NCBI GenBank assembly: GCA_026003195.1
Contig: BPGU01000002.1
Span: 1,116,001 to 1,180,000 of the forward strand
Reading direction: 5' to 3'
Length of the DNA: 64,000 nt
Source of the DNA: Armatimonadota bacterium
GTDB taxonomy: Bacteria > Armatimonadota > HRBIN16
Shown here piece after piece: positions 51,187 through 58,563 of this stretch (position 1 is the first letter of the stretch; each line of letters opens with the position of its first letter). The notes under the pieces were generated by a model that was given only the letters and a program-made list of their open reading frames with translations, was not told the origin of the DNA and searched no databases. The position numbers and the translations under genes are program-made.

Positions 51187-53163
51187 TCAAAACGCCGTGC
51201 TCAGTTGAACCACTGCCACACCGCCTCGCTCCTTGTCGCTGCCCAGCAGGGAGTAGGATGCTACCCCCTTTGCATCATAAAAGATTGCCTGGTAGAGGGC
51301 GCGCAGCATGGTATCCCGGCTCAGGTCGTATTGCACGCCGAAGGTCGCATAGTGCTCTATGGGCTTGCCCGGTGCGGATAGCCCTGCCCCCGGATTGAAG
51401 CGCTGGGTGTCCTTCAGATTCCACATCGCCCCCTCGTAGGTCAGGCTGAATCCCCAGCGGGGAAGGGCTTGCCATTGCGCGTGCACTACCAGATGGAGCA
51501 CTTCGTCATCTGTGCCGAAGCCTGCGGGAGGAGCGGCTTTGCCCGTGCCGGTGTAGAAACCACTGCGCGCATCCACCGCCACATTGCCGATGCGTGTCCG
51601 CAGTCCCGCATCCACGCCGCGCAGGTCGGTGGGGTTATGCCAGTAGCCGATGCGTCCCCAGTAGCCGGGTGGCGCAAAATACGGGCGGAAGTCACGATAG
51701 CCCAGCCATATCAGCGCGTCTTTGCCTGCACTGTACTGAACCCTTGCCAGAAACGCCCAGTTGTCCTTATTTAACCGGTTATCGCCATGATGTAACAGGT
51801 CACTTTGCGAATAGACGGCGGCGATATTCCACCGCTCGGAGGGCGAAAAGTTCGCCTGCCATCCCCACACGTTCACCTGGTTCACGGTTCCGAAGACGGT
51901 GGGTACATCCTGCCAGGCGTCCAGGGTGAGAAATTGCACTCCCAGACTGAAGGCTCTGCCCAGTCTGACAGTGGCGGAAGCGCCTGCGCTGTGCCGGGCG
52001 TGGACAATGCCGTAAGGAATGCGGTTAGGACGCTGACGCAGCGGGCTGCCCGGCTGGAACAGGTTGACCGCGTCGTTGCCTGCGGATACACGCATGAAAT
52101 CGGCTAGAAGGTTGGTGTTCACTGCGTTATGCCGGGCGGCGTAGAGCATCAGACTCACCAGGTCGGTATCCATCTGGAACTGGAGACCATCCATGCTGTA
52201 GTAGCCGTTATCGTAGCGAGGGAGCAGGGTGTATACATCCAGGTCAGGGCGCCACAGGGTGAGCGGAGTCATGCGGTTCTCTATCCTGCCTATCGCCACA
52301 CTGCCCTGCCTGCCGAAAAGAGAGAAGGGCAAACGCACGTTCGCTTTCCACAAGAGGAAATCCGTAGCGCCCGGAGCGCGTGAGACACCCGGCGCGAACT
52401 GCGAGGCGGAGCCAAAGTAGGTTAGAAGGTTTCCCACCACCAGGGCAGCCTCCGCGCGCACCCCCGGCGACAGTTCGCTACGCACCTGCAGGCTCAACTC
52501 CTGTGTGGCGTGCACGTTGTTTAACAACCCACCCCGCAAAGCATAACCGTTCTGGTCCACGGCGCCTTTGCTATCGATGCCGTGTGCGCCTCGCCCGATC
52601 ATATCCAGCGTGCCACTCACCTGTGCCCGCTGGCGTATCCTTTGCTCCATCGAGCGAATCTGGCTCTCGGTTCCTGAAATCTCGGAGCGCAGACGACGCA
52701 CGTCTTCGCCCAGCGCCTGCAAGTCCCGTCCGAACTCCTCCAGCAGCTGGTTCAAGATACGCATCTGCTCTTCCAGCCTGCGCAGTCGCTCCGCCGTGTT
52801 CTCGGGAATCTGCTTCAGCTTCTCCCTGTCGGCGGCAAAAGTATCGGTATCAACGACGGGGGGAGGAGTGATTGTTGGAGGAGGGGGCAGCAGAATGCGC
52901 TGTCGGAGTTCGTCCCTCAAATCGTTGACACGGCTTCTGACCTCTTGAAGGGCATCGCGCAGCGCCACAGCAAACTCGTAGCGCGTGACCGGCGACTGAC
53001 CGCGAAAAGAGCCGTCGGGGTATCCCTTCAAGATGCCCTGCCGGATAAGCGTTTGAACCGCTTCGTACGCCCAGTGTCCGGGGGGAACGTCTTGCTGGGC
53101 GAAAGCGGAAACGCACAGCCCCAGAGCGATTACCAGAGCCACAGGCGGCACAAGACGATTCAC
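51187..53163 (-). CDS. SLH-domain porin-like outer-membrane protein
   Basis: 658-residue protein. A signal peptide (VALVIALGLCVSAFAQ) is followed by one SLH domain (DVPPGHWAYEAVQTLIRQGILKGYPDGSFRGQSPVTRYEFAVALRDAL), a coiled-coil (about residues 100-180, ENTAERLRRLEEQMRILNQL) and a beta-barrel-like C-terminus of alternating strands ending with Phe (VVQLSTAF). This is the layout of SLH-porins (OmpM/OprB-like), which hold the outer membrane to the wall. GTG start with AGGAGGT upstream. The next gene upstream is a paralogue. Confidence 0.9.
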   Translation of the reverse strand: MNRLVPPVALVIALGLCVSAFAQQDVPPGHWAYEAVQTLIRQGILKGYPDGSFRGQSPVTRYEFAVALRDALQEVRSRVNDLRDELRQRILLPPPPTITPPPVVDTDTFAADREKLKQIPENTAERLRRLEEQMRILNQLLEEFGRDLQALGEDVRRLRSEISGTESQIRSMEQRIRQRAQVSGTLDMIGRGAHGIDSKGAVDQNGYALRGGLLNNVHATQELSLQVRSELSPGVRAEAALVVGNLLTYFGSASQFAPGVSRAPGATDFLLWKANVRLPFSLFGRQGSVAIGRIENRMTPLTLWRPDLDVYTLLPRYDNGYYSMDGLQFQMDTDLVSLMLYAARHNAVNTNLLADFMRVSAGNDAVNLFQPGSPLRQRPNRIPYGIVHARHSAGASATVRLGRAFSLGVQFLTLDAWQDVPTVFGTVNQVNVWGWQANFSPSERWNIAAVYSQSDLLHHGDNRLNKDNWAFLARVQYSAGKDALIWLGYRDFRPYFAPPGYWGRIGYWHNPTDLRGVDAGLRTRIGNVAVDARSGFYTGTGKAAPPAGFGTDDEVLHLVVHAQWQALPRWGFSLTYEGAMWNLKDTQRFNPGAGLSAPGKPIEHYATFGVQYDLSRDTMLRALYQAIFYDAKGVASYSLLGSDKERGGVAVVQLSTAF

Positions 53164-53261
53164 GAGTGCACCTCCTGTCGTGATAAAGAATCCGGTGAAA
53201 CATGGATTCGGCAGAACGTGCAGGAGTCCTGCCACGATACAAACGTCGGCGCATCCCAACG

Positions 53262-53290
53262 AAAAACCCCCTCCGGCAAGCCGGAGGGGG
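53262..53290 (-). terminator. Intrinsic terminator of the upstream SLH porin
   Basis: Minus strand: stem CCCCCTCCGGC/GCCGGAGGGGG (53290-53280 with 53277-53267), 2-nt loop, then TTTTT (53266-53262), 20 bp after the 53310 stop. Strong. Confidence 0.85.
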
Positions 53291-53309
53291 TTGATGGTGC
53301 GACTTCAGG

Positions 53310-55241
53310 TTAGAACTTCACGCTGAACTGCGCCACTGCTACACCAGCGCGGGCTTTGTCGTCGCCCGGGATCACACGCCATGGGACCACACCCTTGGCG
53401 TTGAAGTCCACGACCTGGTAGAGCAGTTTGAGCAGCGCGTTGTCGCTCACCTTGTAGTCCACGCCCAGCGTGACGTAGTTCTCCGTCGGCTTGGCGCCGG
53501 CAGCGGAGGTCTTGAGGTTCCACAGAACGCCCTCGTAGGAGACGTTCAGGTTCAGCTTCTCGGTGGCGTTCCACAGCACGCCGGCGGCGACGTGAGTGAT
53601 CTCGTCGTCCTTACCAACGAAGCTCGCTGGGCGATTGCTGCCCTTGTAGAAGCCGCCCTTCGCATCGATGGCGAACGAACCCAGCTTCCATGCCAGGGCG
53701 ACGTCCGCGCCCTTAATGTCGGTGGGGTTGTGCCAGTAGCCGATGCGTCCCCAATAGCCGGGGGCGGCGAAGTACGGGCGCACCTCACGATAGCCTGCGC
53801 TCAGCGACAGGTTCTCGCTGAAGGTATAACCCACACCCACCAGCAGCGCCCAGTTGTCTTTGTTGTTGACATTGCTCTCCTGCAGCAGCAGGTCGCTCTG
53901 GGCGTAGTCAGCGGTGATGGTCAGGCGGTCGATCAGGTTCGCCTTCAGGTGACCGCCGTACACGTTCAGGCGGTTCACGTTGCCGAACGGGGCGACCGCA
54001 GTGGTGCCCAGCTTCGCGGTGATGACTTCACCGCTCAGGCTCACCTTCTCACCCAGGTTCACGTCCACGGTTGCACCTGCGCTACTATCGAACGCGCCGA
54101 TGCCCGCCACCGTCGCCACCGCGGGGTGAGCAGCAGCGATGTTCGGAGTCGCGCCGATGCCACCATTGAGCGACATGAAGTTCGTGCCGTTGTTGGTGTT
54201 CACGTTGCTGTTGCGTGCGGCGAACAGCCCGATTTGCACCGAGCCGAAGCCCACCGCCGCCTTCACACCGTCCATGCTGTAGTAGCCGTTGTCGTAGCGA
54301 TCGATGGTGGTGTAGACGTCCACATCAGGTCGCCACAGGGTCAACGGGTTGACGCGGTTCTCGAAGCGACCGATGGTCAGGTTCACCTCGGTGCCGAACA
54401 CACTAATCGGCGCGTTAACCGCGGCTTTCCACAGCACGATGTCGGTGTTGGTCGCTGCCGGGCGAGCACCAAACTGCGATGCCGAGCCCAGGTAAGGCAA
54501 CCAGTTGCCGACCACCAGGCTCACATCGGCAGAAGCGGTGTCGCTGAGCTTGCTGCTGATGTTCAGCCCCAGCTCATGCAGCACATCAATGTTGCCCAGC
54601 AAGCCACCGGGGGCGGTCGGCTGCGCATTGAGGTCGATCGCGGTGCGGTTGTCGATGCTGTTGGTGCCGCGTACCACGAAGGTCACGTCACCGCTGAGGC
54701 GGAACCGCTTCATCTCTTCCTCGATCGCCTCGACGCGCTTGCGCAGGTTGGCGAGGTCGCGCTTGGCGGATTCCACATCCACGCCCAGCGAAGCCATCTC
54801 ATCCTGGAACTCTGTGGCGAGGCGGTTGATTCGCGCCATCGCCTCTTCCAGCCTCTGCAGCCGTTCGGCGGTGTCCGCAGGAATCTTGGCGAGCTTGTCT
54901 TTCTCCTCGCGGGTGTAGGTTTCACCTTCGCGAGGGGGCTGCGCGGGTTGCGTGGGGCCAGTGGCAGGTCCCCTCGGGATCTGCGCGCGGACCTCATCGA
55001 TCTGCTGCCGAACCGCGGCGAGCGCATCGCGGATAGCGATGGCGAACTCGTACCGCGTCACCGGCGCCTTGCCCTTAAACGTCCCATCCGGGTAGCCCTT
55101 CAGCACACCGAGGTCAAACAGCTCCTCGATGGCGTCATAAGCCCAGTGCCCGGGCGGAACATCGGGGGGCACCTGTGCCCAGGCGTTGCCAGCGAAGGTG
55201 ATCGCGATGGCGACACCCAAGCCGATCCACAGACGTTTCAT
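53310..55241 (-). CDS. SLH-domain porin-like outer-membrane protein (paralogue)
   Basis: 643-residue protein with the same plan: signal peptide (LGVAIAITFAGNAWAQ), SLH domain (DVPPGHWAYDAIEELFDLGVLKGYPDGTFKGKAPVTRYEFAIAIRDAL), coiled coil (TAERLQRLEEAMARINRLATEFQDEMASL) and C-terminal barrel ending VAQFSVKF. The shared block YWGRIGYWHNPTD shows it is a tandem duplicate of the downstream gene. It has a strong promoter and a long structured leader, suggesting high or regulated expression. Probably an abundant general porin. Confidence 0.92.
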   Translation of the reverse strand: MKRLWIGLGVAIAITFAGNAWAQVPPDVPPGHWAYDAIEELFDLGVLKGYPDGTFKGKAPVTRYEFAIAIRDALAAVRQQIDEVRAQIPRGPATGPTQPAQPPREGETYTREEKDKLAKIPADTAERLQRLEEAMARINRLATEFQDEMASLGVDVESAKRDLANLRKRVEAIEEEMKRFRLSGDVTFVVRGTNSIDNRTAIDLNAQPTAPGGLLGNIDVLHELGLNISSKLSDTASADVSLVVGNWLPYLGSASQFGARPAATNTDIVLWKAAVNAPISVFGTEVNLTIGRFENRVNPLTLWRPDVDVYTTIDRYDNGYYSMDGVKAAVGFGSVQIGLFAARNSNVNTNNGTNFMSLNGGIGATPNIAAAHPAVATVAGIGAFDSSAGATVDVNLGEKVSLSGEVITAKLGTTAVAPFGNVNRLNVYGGHLKANLIDRLTITADYAQSDLLLQESNVNNKDNWALLVGVGYTFSENLSLSAGYREVRPYFAAPGYWGRIGYWHNPTDIKGADVALAWKLGSFAIDAKGGFYKGSNRPASFVGKDDEITHVAAGVLWNATEKLNLNVSYEGVLWNLKTSAAGAKPTENYVTLGVDYKVSDNALLKLLYQVVDFNAKGVVPWRVIPGDDKARAGVAVAQFSVKF

Positions 55242-55283
55242 CGTACCCTCCTCCTTGTTCCTTGATGGAAGTGTACCGTACCG

Positions 55284-55451
55284 TTCGGAGCACTCACTTC
55301 CCGGAACAGAGAGGGCTTGCCTTTCGGCTGGGGAAGTTCGTTTCGCGGAGCCTCCAGGGTTACCTCCGGCGCACGCCTCCCTTCCACCTCAGGCGCTCTC
55401 CTGTTCCTCTCAGGGAGTGCCCCGATATATGCATTCACCGCTTTCGCGGTG
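55284..55451 (-). promoter_or_regulatory. Structured 5' leader RNA of the SLH porin gene
   Basis: The minus-strand leader (about 55470-55242) can fold into concentric stems: a 9-bp outer helix (GGGGCACTC 55423-55415 with GAGTGCTCC 55295-55287, one GU) and an 11-bp inner helix (GGAACAG/CTGTTCC 55407-55401 with 55309-55303, plus AGAG/CTCT 55399-55396 with 55313-55310). They enclose a multibranch loop with three hairpins: CGCCT/AGGCG (55395-55391, 55378-55374), CGGAG/CTCCG (55368-55364, 55350-55346) and GCC-GAAA-GGC (55328-55319). A GNRA-capped hairpin CACCGC/GCGGTG (55451-55436) stands upstream. No ORF of note. No known riboswitch class recognised. Confidence 0.65.
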
Positions 55452-55476
55452 GAAATGCCATACCGAGTTCAGTACT

Positions 55477-55505
55477 ACTATACCACGACCTTGCGCAAAC
55501 GTCAA
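55477..55505 (-). promoter_or_regulatory. Strong promoter of the SLH porin
   Basis: Minus strand TTGACG (55505-55500), 17-bp spacer, TATAGT (55482-55477). Predicted start near 55470, giving a leader of about 229 nt to the ATG at 55241. Confidence 0.8.
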
Positions 55506-55657
55506 GAAGCTTACCCGTGATTTTGCTGAAAAAGTTGTTTTTCTGCACTTTCTCCGTCGTGATTTTCCATTTTTACGGACGGAGCGAGAGCGATTTCGGT
55601 TATCATGATGTTGGTCGTTTTCGCCGAATATCTTAGCGGAGGAGAGTTCTCACGCCT

Positions 55658-56575
55658 ATGCGACGGGTGATAGAATGCGTGCCCAATTTCAGCGAGGGAC
55701 GCAACAACGAGACCATCCACGCGCTGGCACAAGCCGTGCGCGAGGTAGCTGGCGTTCGTCTGGTAAACGTTTCGGCAGACCCCGACCATCACCGCACGGT
55801 GCTAACCTTTCTGGGAGAACCTGCGCCGGTGGCAGAAGCTGCCTTCCGCTGTGCACAGATAGCGGTAGAGCGGATAGACCTGCGTCGCCACCAGGGAGTG
55901 CATCCGCGTATCGGCGCGGTGGATGTGATGCCTTTTATCCCGCTCAGACACGTGTCAATGTCCGAGTGCGCGCAGATTGCCCGCGCAGTGGGCTACCGCA
56001 TCGCACGCGAGCTGGAGGTTCCGGTGTACTTCTACGAGCACGCCGCGCTACCCGGTAGACCATCAGACCTGCCGACCATCCGTCGGGGAGGCTTTGAGAA
56101 GTGGGTGGGGCGACCGCTGACGGGTGACCGTGCGCCGGATGCTGGTCCTGCGTTTCTCCATCCCATAGCAGGCGCGGCGATAGTGGGCGCACGAACATCC
56201 CTCATCGCTTTCAACATCAATCTGGATACCGACCGCGTGGAGGTCGCACAGCACATCGCCCGCACCATTCGACGGGAACGAGAACATGTCCCGCAGTTGG
56301 CGGGAGTACGTTCGTTGGGGCTGTTCCTTGCCTCGCGGGGCATCGCACAGGTGTCTTTGAACCTGACACAACCCGACCGGAGTCCGCTCTGGTGGGTGAC
56401 GGAGTATGTGCGTCGGCTCGCGGCGGAACAGGGCGTGCGCGTACTGGAAACGGAGCTGGTAGGGGTCGTGCCGGCTTCTGTCATCGCCGAAGTCGCTGCG
56501 CATTCTCTGCAAAACCCTGCTTTGAGCGAGGAGCATATTCTGGATCTGTGGCTGGACCCTGAATGGAATCCCTGA
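55658..56575 (+). CDS. ftcD: Glutamate formimidoyltransferase
   Basis: 305-residue formiminotransferase that moves the formimino group between N-formiminoglutamate and tetrahydrofolate in histidine breakdown. The N-terminus RRVIECVPNFSEGRN is typical; catalytic His82 is in RRHQGVHPRIGAVDV. It is the formiminotransferase part only, without the cyclodeaminase domain. The region between 55506 and 55657 before it shows no clear promoter. Its end overlaps the next gene by 13 bp. Confidence 0.94.
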   Translation: MRRVIECVPNFSEGRNNETIHALAQAVREVAGVRLVNVSADPDHHRTVLTFLGEPAPVAEAAFRCAQIAVERIDLRRHQGVHPRIGAVDVMPFIPLRHVSMSECAQIARAVGYRIARELEVPVYFYEHAALPGRPSDLPTIRRGGFEKWVGRPLTGDRAPDAGPAFLHPIAGAAIVGARTSLIAFNINLDTDRVEVAQHIARTIRREREHVPQLAGVRSLGLFLASRGIAQVSLNLTQPDRSPLWWVTEYVRRLAAEQGVRVLETELVGVVPASVIAEVAAHSLQNPALSEEHILDLWLDPEWNP

Positions 56576-58563
56576 GCATCTCACAACTGGCACTGAGGCT
56601 CGTGCTGGCGCTGGCGGTGGTTGTCTGGGGGTGGTATACCCCGCCGCTGCAGCAACTCATCACGGGCATCGCGGGAGGGGTATTGCTTCTGGCGGCAATG
56701 AAGCAGAAGAGCCGATTGGCAGCCTGTGCAGATGTGCTGGCAGTATCCGCTCTGCAGGCATATTCCCCGCTGTGGCTACCGCTCAGTGCGTGGGTTGTTG
56801 CTGTTCATCGTAGGTATGCACGCTGGTTATCCCTGTTGCTGATACCGGCTCCTTTCATCTATGGATGGCGGGCAGACAGCAACTTCCTGGTGTGGGCGGC
56901 ACTCTATGGAGCACTGTGGCTGTATCTGGGTTTCTCGCTGGCGGAACAACCAGAAGGTGAAGAAGAGGAATACTTCCTTTTACCTCTGCCCGAAGACCTG
57001 CGTGAGCAGTGGGAACAGGAGCGCGAGGCGCACCGACAACTACGTTATCAGTATCAGCAACTGGTAGCTGCCCATCGCGAACGGATGGCACAACAACAGG
57101 CGGAACGCGCTCGCATCCATATCCTGCGGGCAGCCCTTCTGGCAGATGAGGTGAGCGAGGTAGCGCGACGCATCGTCTCAGTGCTGTGCGAGTATACCGG
57201 CGCAGGCGAGGCTGCAGTATGGGTTTTTGAGCGATACCGTTCTGCCCTGCGGCTGGAGCATCCCCGCAGCGCCGACCTGCCTGCTCATATTCCTCTCTCC
57301 GTGCCTTCCCACTCGCAGGACAGGGATATGTCTCTCCGCACGGCGATCCAGCAGTTCAGGGCTGCTCTCCAACCGTCGCTGGGCGAGGGTGTGCAGGCGT
57401 TCCTGCTTTCCGATGAACAGGGAATCGTGGGGGGAGTAGCGCTGTATGGCTGGGGGCAAGCGGAAGAGGAGACGGGCATCCGCGAGCGGTTTCAGCAGAC
57501 GCAGGACGCGGTCGCTCTGGCTCTGCGTCAGGCGGTGCAGTGGAATACACTGCAGCAGGAAAACCGCACCTTGCGCGCGCTTTATGAGATTGGGCGACTG
57601 TTTCTCGTGTCTTCTTCCGTAGAAGATTCCGCCCGAAAGTTTATCTCTGTGGTGTCGGAACTGCTTTCTGCTCCGTTTGTCACGCTGTATCTTCGCCAGC
57701 AGGATACAGGCGCGTTTCAGATTGCCGCCTCAGTCGGTGACCCCATCCGGTTGATGGAGCAAGAGGGAGAAGCAGAAGGAGGCATTGCTGCCTGGATAGC
57801 GCAACAGGCTCGTCCGCTTTACGTTCCTCGTACCTCCGCAGAACCCAGGCTGATTCGCCACACTTCCAAACGGATATTTGCCAGCCTGATCGGAGCGCCT
57901 CTGTCGGTGCGTAGGCGCGTGGAGGGCGTGCTGCTTGTCGCGCATCCCACACCCGGCTATTTCGGCGAGCATCACGTCGAGCAGGCAGTGTCTGCTGCCA
58001 ATCAGTTCGCGCAGGTGATGGAGGTCTCGCACCTGACTCGCTCGGTGGGATTGCTGGCACTGACCGACGGCTTAACCGGTATGTTCAACCGACGGTACCT
58101 GGAGGTCCGGCTGGACGAAGAGATACACCGCAGCCAGCGATATGGAAAGCGGTTCAGCCTGATTCTGGTGGATGTAGACCACTTCAAGCAGATTAACGAC
58201 ACCTGGGGTCATGCCACAGGGGATATGGTGCTGCAAGAGGTGAGCCGCAGGCTGGCGGAGAACCTGCGAGAAACGGAAATGGTCTTCCGGTATGGTGGTG
58301 AAGAGTTCTGTATCCTTCTCCCAGAGACCACTCTCCAGCGTGCGGTGGTGGTGGCGCAGCGATTACGCGAGGCGGTGGACAGTCGTCCCTTTACCACCGC
58401 TGATGGCACTACAGCCTTCCGGGTGACCCTGAGCGCAGGAGTGGCAGAATATCCCACTCATGGTTCCGAGAAGAAGGCTCTGCTCGCTGCTGCCGACCAT
58501 GCCCTTTACCTGGCAAAACAGCGCGGGCGCAACCGGGTAGAGCAGTTGCCTCCTGCCGCCTGA
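56563..58563 (+). CDS. Membrane-anchored GAF-GGDEF diguanylate cyclase
   Basis: 666-residue protein. N-terminal hydrophobic helices (residues about 8-120) form a membrane part; a coiled coil (EQEREAHRQLRYQYQQLV) follows, then one or two GAF-like domains (about 180-480) and a C-terminal GGDEF domain. The active motif is RYGGEEF, with GLTGMFNRRYLEVRLDEE and VDVDHFKQINDTWGHATGD before it. The inhibitory site five residues before is R-x-x-E and not R-x-x-D, so product inhibition may be weak. It makes c-di-GMP. Confidence 0.9.
   Translation: MESLSISQLALRLVLALAVVVWGWYTPPLQQLITGIAGGVLLLAAMKQKSRLAACADVLAVSALQAYSPLWLPLSAWVVAVHRRYARWLSLLLIPAPFIYGWRADSNFLVWAALYGALWLYLGFSLAEQPEGEEEEYFLLPLPEDLREQWEQEREAHRQLRYQYQQLVAAHRERMAQQQAERARIHILRAALLADEVSEVARRIVSVLCEYTGAGEAAVWVFERYRSALRLEHPRSADLPAHIPLSVPSHSQDRDMSLRTAIQQFRAALQPSLGEGVQAFLLSDEQGIVGGVALYGWGQAEEETGIRERFQQTQDAVALALRQAVQWNTLQQENRTLRALYEIGRLFLVSSSVEDSARKFISVVSELLSAPFVTLYLRQQDTGAFQIAASVGDPIRLMEQEGEAEGGIAAWIAQQARPLYVPRTSAEPRLIRHTSKRIFASLIGAPLSVRRRVEGVLLVAHPTPGYFGEHHVEQAVSAANQFAQVMEVSHLTRSVGLLALTDGLTGMFNRRYLEVRLDEEIHRSQRYGKRFSLILVDVDHFKQINDTWGHATGDMVLQEVSRRLAENLRETEMVFRYGGEEFCILLPETTLQRAVVVAQRLREAVDSRPFTTADGTTAFRVTLSAGVAEYPTHGSEKKALLAAADHALYLAKQRGRNRVEQLPPAA

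Follow-up and report, generated by a model that had tools for sequence, protein, structure and literature searches.

INTRODUCTION

Several described systems come close to the leader reported here. The slpA mRNA of Thermus thermophilus encodes an SLH-type envelope protein and has a long regulated leader, so that its likeness to our locus, by description only, is that of a long leader on the mRNA of such a protein. In translational riboswitches and r-protein-type leaders, a strand pairs exclusively with either the sensor domain or the SD. CsrA recognizes the consensus ACA-R-GGA in a hairpin loop, and in Proteobacteria it is sigma-E and sRNAs that do the corresponding regulatory job for the outer membrane. 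Upstream of SLH-protein genes, a riboswitch candidate named the SLH motif has been described, with 80 reported examples in Synergistaceae such as Thermovirga lienii, Clostridia, and Negativicutes, ~60% of them before SLH genes (Stav et al. 2019, PMC6429828). The paper on OmpM structure and function places OmpM1 and OmpM2 among the most abundant outer membrane proteins of Veillonella parvula and is silent on any UTR, leader, or operon (PMC10628300).

Here, we analyzed the 5' leader of an SLH porin gene in a 64-kb stretch of DNA (the window, i.e., the whole stretch) from a genome placed in Armatimonadota, in the group of bacterium HR16. In its predicted strand exchange, this leader resembles the riboswitches and r-protein leaders, but its sensor is a small hairpin common to a putative regulon of outer membrane proteins (OMPs). 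The control of OMPs in diderm Terrabacteria is largely unknown, and a short, searchable hairpin is a direct handle on it: it predicts which genes form the regulon, could serve as bait in the search for their regulator, and is relevant to the age of outer-membrane regulation.

RESULTS AND DISCUSSION

A conserved leader precedes the SLH porin gene

The product of the porin gene (Table 1) carries an SLH domain (PF00395) plus weak barrel matches, and its SLH region resembles the S-layer/OmpM-type (SlpA-type) chains 8bys, 8bym, and 7zgx of the PDB. A preliminary description of this DNA had proposed a strong promoter, about 229 nt of non-coding leader, and a GNRA-capped upstream hairpin, and all three are confirmed. 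The promoter at 55505-55477 is the only promoter-like site on the minus strand of 53000-57500, and TTGACGTTTG and TCGTGGTATAGT are invariant across the ten species of the genus leader alignment. The leader ends at an ATG at 55241, and the hairpin (55458-55431) has a GAAA loop and shows compensatory changes at two pairs among the genus leaders. The same description had assigned the leader to no known riboswitch or leader class; accordingly, no Rfam 15 regulatory-RNA family matches the window or the Armatimonadota and Negativicutes leaders at or above its gathering score.

Table 1. Features of the porin locus (window coordinates)
Feature	Position	Strand	Basis or remark
Promoter TTGACG-17-TATAGT, TG before the -10 (extended -10)	55477..55505	-	Hexamers invariant in ten species
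5' leader of SLH porin mRNA, ~229 nt	55242..55471	-	Fold energy, genus conservation
5' hairpin GCAUU-CCACCGC-GAAA-GCGGUG-AAUGC, GNRA loop	55431..55458	-	Near invariant in genus
Rod domain (P1, P2, P3-P8), 139 nt	55286..55424	-	Covariation; model R2
P1 CGGGGCACUC/GAGUGCUCCG	55424-55415 with 55295-55286	-	
P2 GGAACAG[G]AGAG/CUCUCUGUUCC, 11 bp, one bulge	55407-55396 with 55313-55303	-	
P2 3' strand CUCUCUGUUCC	55303..55313	-	Pairs with 55407-55396 or, alternatively, with SD region 55261-55245
GGAAGUG in P1/P2 internal loop	55295..55301	-	Complementary to CACUUCC
Apical hairpin GGAG-GUAACCCUGGAGG-CUCC, GNAAC..GG class member	55347..55367	-	Best R1 match in window
Anti-SD arm GUACACUUCC	55267..55276	-	UACACUUCC invariant in genus
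SD region GGAACAAGGAGGAGGGU	55245..55261	-	
SLH porin (OmpM-type) gene, 643 aa, SLH domain + barrel	53310..55241	-	PF00395

The leader is kept before the same porin in all ten genus genomes (G000-G009), and most of these leaders are 81-92% identical to that of the window. Their most constant parts are the promoter hexamers, the 5' GNRA hairpin, the tip AGGUAACC.UGG..GGCUCC, the arm UACACUUCC, and the SD region. The MFE of the leader is -100.8 kcal/mol, compared with -80.1 ± 4.5 for shuffled sequences (z -4.6).

The rod domain covaries within the genus

To assess the rod, we used a sequence-only alignment of the ten genus leaders (A4), in which 86% of the cells of the proposed structure are paired. 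We found 13 pairs changed on both sides, compared with 3.6 ± 1.6 in shuffles; none of 500 shuffles reached 13, and slid controls gave at most 3. The covariation score was 0.178, against 0.115 ± 0.011 for the shuffles. Pairing is weakest in helices P3 and P4, at 52 and 62% of cells. Hence, the covariation across homologous leaders that had been named as the test of this leader is present, and the two nested long-range helices proposed earlier are recovered as P1 and P2. Altogether, the fold energy, the conservation within the genus, and the covariation above shuffles agree with the earlier claim of structure beyond chance and support the leader being a structured, selected RNA.

The proposal that these helices enclose three hairpins stands in part. 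The third (tip) hairpin is real, but the other two merge into a single long rod, which is favored by the MFE folds of all ten species; the two small hairpins are possibly an alternative fold at P3/P4. The rod model (R2) finds all ten genus species; its match to L091, a porin leader of another family, is full-length but weak (E 0.017). The model also gives a weak score to the antisense strand of the leader, because the leader is a long near-palindrome. The strands of the P1/P2 internal loop are unsuitable for a k-turn, which was considered there and rejected by eye.

The apical hairpin defines a class in Armatimonadota

The functionally informative part of the leader is its apical hairpin, a conserved unit that the preliminary description overlooked. 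The class to which it belongs has the consensus (S)AG-GNAAC-n-GG-nn(A)-CU(S). SLH porins are present in 194 of 201 Armatimonadota genomes, and among 80 of their leaders the expression AGGNAACn(2-3)GG..[AG][CT]T occurs in 43, compared with a mean of 0.175 in shuffles (no more than 2 in any of 200 shuffled sets) and with none on the antisense strand; since the expression was chosen after the sequences had been seen, this count alone is no blind test. A genome-wide search of 61 genomes gave 34 matches to the pattern versus 17 to its reverse; of the 34, 18 are followed by SLH porins and 2 by members of a further secreted, barrel-like family. Covariation is strong for stem pairs that the searched pattern does not include, with a score of 0.531, compared with 0.156 ± 0.029 in shuffles and at most 0.174 in slid controls; with 74 sequences, the stem score is 0.573. 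The loop looks more invariant than it is, since the training set was chosen partly with the pattern.

Beyond this short hairpin with its loop of 12-13 nt, the leaders differ between families. About 100 nt of transcript precede the hairpin in the window and several other families. The window hairpin is a divergent member with a 13-nt loop; a MAFFT alignment that took in loops of this length (A6) could not gap the loop and did not serve for the model.

The window genome also has a second copy. A 178-aa barrel is encoded by every one of the ten genus genomes (OMP2; OMP_b-brl E 4e-4, below the cut-off), and the hairpin GGUAGCAG-GCAACGCGGAAGA-CUGCUGCC or a variant of it is present in the eight full OMP2 leaders read. 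There, it begins a few bases past TATAAT and ends ~30-45 nt before the start codon. In the window genome (G000), the gene lies at C3:402842-403375, with the hairpin in its leader.

The hairpin recurs before OMP genes in a second phylum

Model R1 was trained on 35 hairpins from other Armatimonadota families, with none from the genus of the window; its E-values are rough owing to short calibration. Its best match in the window is at 55374-55340 (16.8 bits, E 0.016; E 9e-5 within the leader). In the 201 Armatimonadota genomes, R1 gave 78 matches at E<=0.01, of which 63 precede SLH porins, 5 precede other barrel or YjbH-like proteins, 2 are at contig ends, and 8 are without an obvious OMP gene. 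For the 43 matches outside the training set, the corresponding numbers are 30, 3, 2, and 8.

The cleanest independent test of the class is the search of Negativicutes, another phylum, with a model trained only on Armatimonadota. Matches at E<=0.1 were found in 74 of 80 genomes, many of which have several below 0.005, compared with 13 of 98 Cyanobacteria and 10 of 81 Bacilli, both about chance. Of 29 top loci read (L279-L307), 20 were automatically flagged as OmpM, and L290 is OmpM from an internal start; the remainder are seven barrel-like proteins without SLH and one locus at a contig edge. Three of five such non-SLH proteins tested have Porin_4 matches. In Selenomonas and Succiniclasticum, each of the 4-5 tandem ompM genes has its own hairpin, 59-76 nt before the start codon. 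The occurrence of the hairpin before OMP genes in at least two phyla points to a shared, largely unstudied system of OMP control at the RNA level.

Outside these sets, hairpins lie 78-89 nt before SLH porins at three cyanobacterial loci (L308, L313, and L317), although the phylum as a whole is near chance, and an SLH porin likewise follows a Riflebacteria match (L274, E 0.125). In one Selenomonas genome, the gene downstream of the hairpin (L266, G206:C4:57967-58000) encodes a HAD IIIB acid phosphatase that seems to carry a signal peptide. Several Armatimonadota families have it before small secreted proteins (YjbH-like or similar, ~230-260 aa; L201, L225, L227, L230, L142, L143, L223, and L234) that start with GLIETPDD or GLPLNPTAQIP and mostly lack a Pfam assignment.

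These contexts invite comparison with the SLH motif. Both RNAs lie upstream of SLH-protein genes, as do 63 of the 78 strong Armatimonadota R1 matches and most of the top Negativicutes matches. The motif has been described ahead of SLH genes and of genes with no known function (PMC6429828), whereas the hairpin class also precedes clear non-SLH barrels and extends to Armatimonadota and to nearly all sampled Negativicutes. Judged by description and gene context, the two may be the same RNA, as is likely for the Negativicutes copies in particular. This suggests that the sparsely described SLH motif may concern outer membrane proteins rather than S-layers.

The linker is predicted to pair with the hairpin flank or with the SD

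Complementarity predicts two alternative partners for the sequence between hairpin and SD. For the P2 3' strand CUCUCUGUUCC of the window, the possible partners are GGAACAG.GAGAG in P2 and GGAACAAGGAGGAGGG at the SD (about -19 kcal/mol). Likewise, both the SD and the GGAAGUG in the P1/P2 internal loop are complementary to the invariant arm CACUUCC, and its pairing with GGAAGUG would be a possible pseudoknot or anti-anti-SD. Pairing of the linker with the 5' flank of the hairpin reached p<0.1 in 46/54 Armatimonadota, 10/10 genus, and 22/33 Negativicutes leaders, and linker-SD complementarity did so in 22/54, 8/10, and 23/33, respectively, where 10% is expected. The linker bases involved in the two pairings overlap. 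Furthermore, the two species in which P2 has changed most (G008 and G001) are exactly those that lack GGAAC before the SD, and ensemble folding gives SD pairing of 0.76-0.95 in all ten species. The predicted arrangement is that of a translational SD switch, in which an anti-SD strand pairs with either the sensor domain or the SD.

Translational control and its alternatives

On balance, we lean toward the leader being a cis-acting translational control element of an OMP regulon, read by a putative trans-acting factor. Stability, translation, and ligand binding had been suggested as its mode of action; among these, translation is best supported, because of the predicted, mutually exclusive anti-SD pairing. 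The sensor would be the tip hairpin with its conserved GNAAC..GG loop, common to SLH-porin and other barrel leaders of Armatimonadota and Negativicutes. As judged from complementarity, pairing of the linker with the hairpin 5' flank would complete the domain and leave the SD free, and pairing with the SD instead would block it; in the window, the arm ACUUCC and the P2 3' strand (CUCUCUGUUCC) would act as the switching strands. The loop would be recognized by a trans-acting factor, for which an RNA-binding protein is the likeliest candidate; this factor would shift the balance, and OMP synthesis would thereby be set together with the envelope state.

In favor of translational control of an OMP regulon are the conservation and covariation of the leader, the hairpin class, the predominance of SLH porins behind the Armatimonadota R1 matches, the cross-phylum R1 test with its controls near chance, the second copy before OMP2, the per-gene copies in tandem ompM, the linker-SD complementarity, and the coincidence of the missing GGAAC with a changed P2. 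Against it, many Armatimonadota leaders show no significant anti-SD signal, the SD pairing is predicted, the window hairpin is divergent, and of the two candidate partners, several motif-bearing families lack CsrA and several lack Hfq. Since OMP2 leaders leave too little room for an elaborate switch and the anti-SD signal is often not significant, the hairpin may act on mRNA stability.

One form of such an effect would be a 5' stabilizer, i.e., a hairpin near the transcript start that, alone or protein-bound, shields abundant OMP mRNAs from RNases with no switching. The start of the OMP2 hairpin just after the -10 box and the high abundance of OmpM1 and OmpM2 in V. parvula (PMC10628300) are in line with it. 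However, the position of the hairpin well inside the transcript in the window and several other families is not, and plain stability needs neither a conserved loop nor an anti-SD segment, so we regard this explanation as unlikely. We hold a metabolite or ion riboswitch to be similarly improbable. Here, the hairpin and its flanks would be an aptamer for an envelope-related small molecule and would open or close the SD, which would agree with the SD/anti-SD layout and with the proposal of the SLH motif as a riboswitch candidate in the published description (PMC6429828). Yet only the short hairpin is shared across taxa, the rest of the leader varying by family, and the linked genes have a common location, the outer membrane, rather than a common metabolic pathway.

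Still less probable is a binding site for CsrA or for an Hfq-assisted sRNA. With CsrA/RsmA-binding hairpins, the class shares a loop with ACA.GG(A); the base after GG is A in 74 of 97 loops, and CsrA is encoded in 34 of 61 relatives, including 9 of the 10 genus genomes. In contrast to a CsrA site, the other 23 loops have other bases, GGT and GGC being tolerated, and the additional upstream GNAAC is equally conserved. Moreover, csrA does not accompany the site everywhere: no CsrA gene was found in the motif-bearing families f4, f8, f13, f23, and f25, and no Hfq gene in f3, f8, f25, and part of f4. Many of the genomes are MAGs, so absence was judged by its repetition within families. Because several motif-bearing families lack each of them, CsrA and Hfq both fail as universal partners and were rejected as such. 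Finally, an incidental structure, in which GC-rich thermophile sequence folds well and is conserved through close kinship, fits the high identity of most genus leaders but is highly improbable given the double compensatory changes, the comparison with shuffles, the cross-phylum hairpin, and the control groups near chance.

Building on the translational reading, we further propose, with appreciably less than even confidence, that the GNAAC..GG hairpin marks an outer-membrane regulon that is under post-transcriptional control and ancestral to the diderm Terrabacteria, in which one RNA-binding factor would read the loop and coordinate the synthesis of OmpM tethers and further barrels in Armatimonadota, Negativicutes, and perhaps some Cyanobacteria and Riflebacteria. 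If so, this factor would fill the role that sigma-E and sRNAs have in Proteobacteria.

Other features of the locus and of related leaders

A second SLH porin gene, 44% identical to the first, lies 3' of it at 51187-53259 (-), and a strong terminator-like hairpin separates the two (53292-53265, -). No GNAAC hairpin lies ahead of the second gene. Taken together, these features suggest that the second porin may depend on read-through.

Some porin leaders of families f17, f5, f35, and their relatives (L066, L071, L074, L079, L085, L086, L100, L106, and L124) have an extra conserved domain of ~95 nt upstream of the hairpin domain, GCUAUCACACU..CAGCGCAGG..GAAAGGAGGUG..CCUUGA..CCUGUGAGUGCUG..GUGAUAGCAUAG. 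Its AAAGGAGGUG resembles a full SD with no conserved uORF after it; an upstream ORF in the sister leaders with AAAGGAGGUG..CCUUGA was rejected by eye because the frame is not conserved. Near the porin locus of the window, a GAF-GGDEF diguanylate cyclase gene lies on the opposite strand (56563-58563, +).
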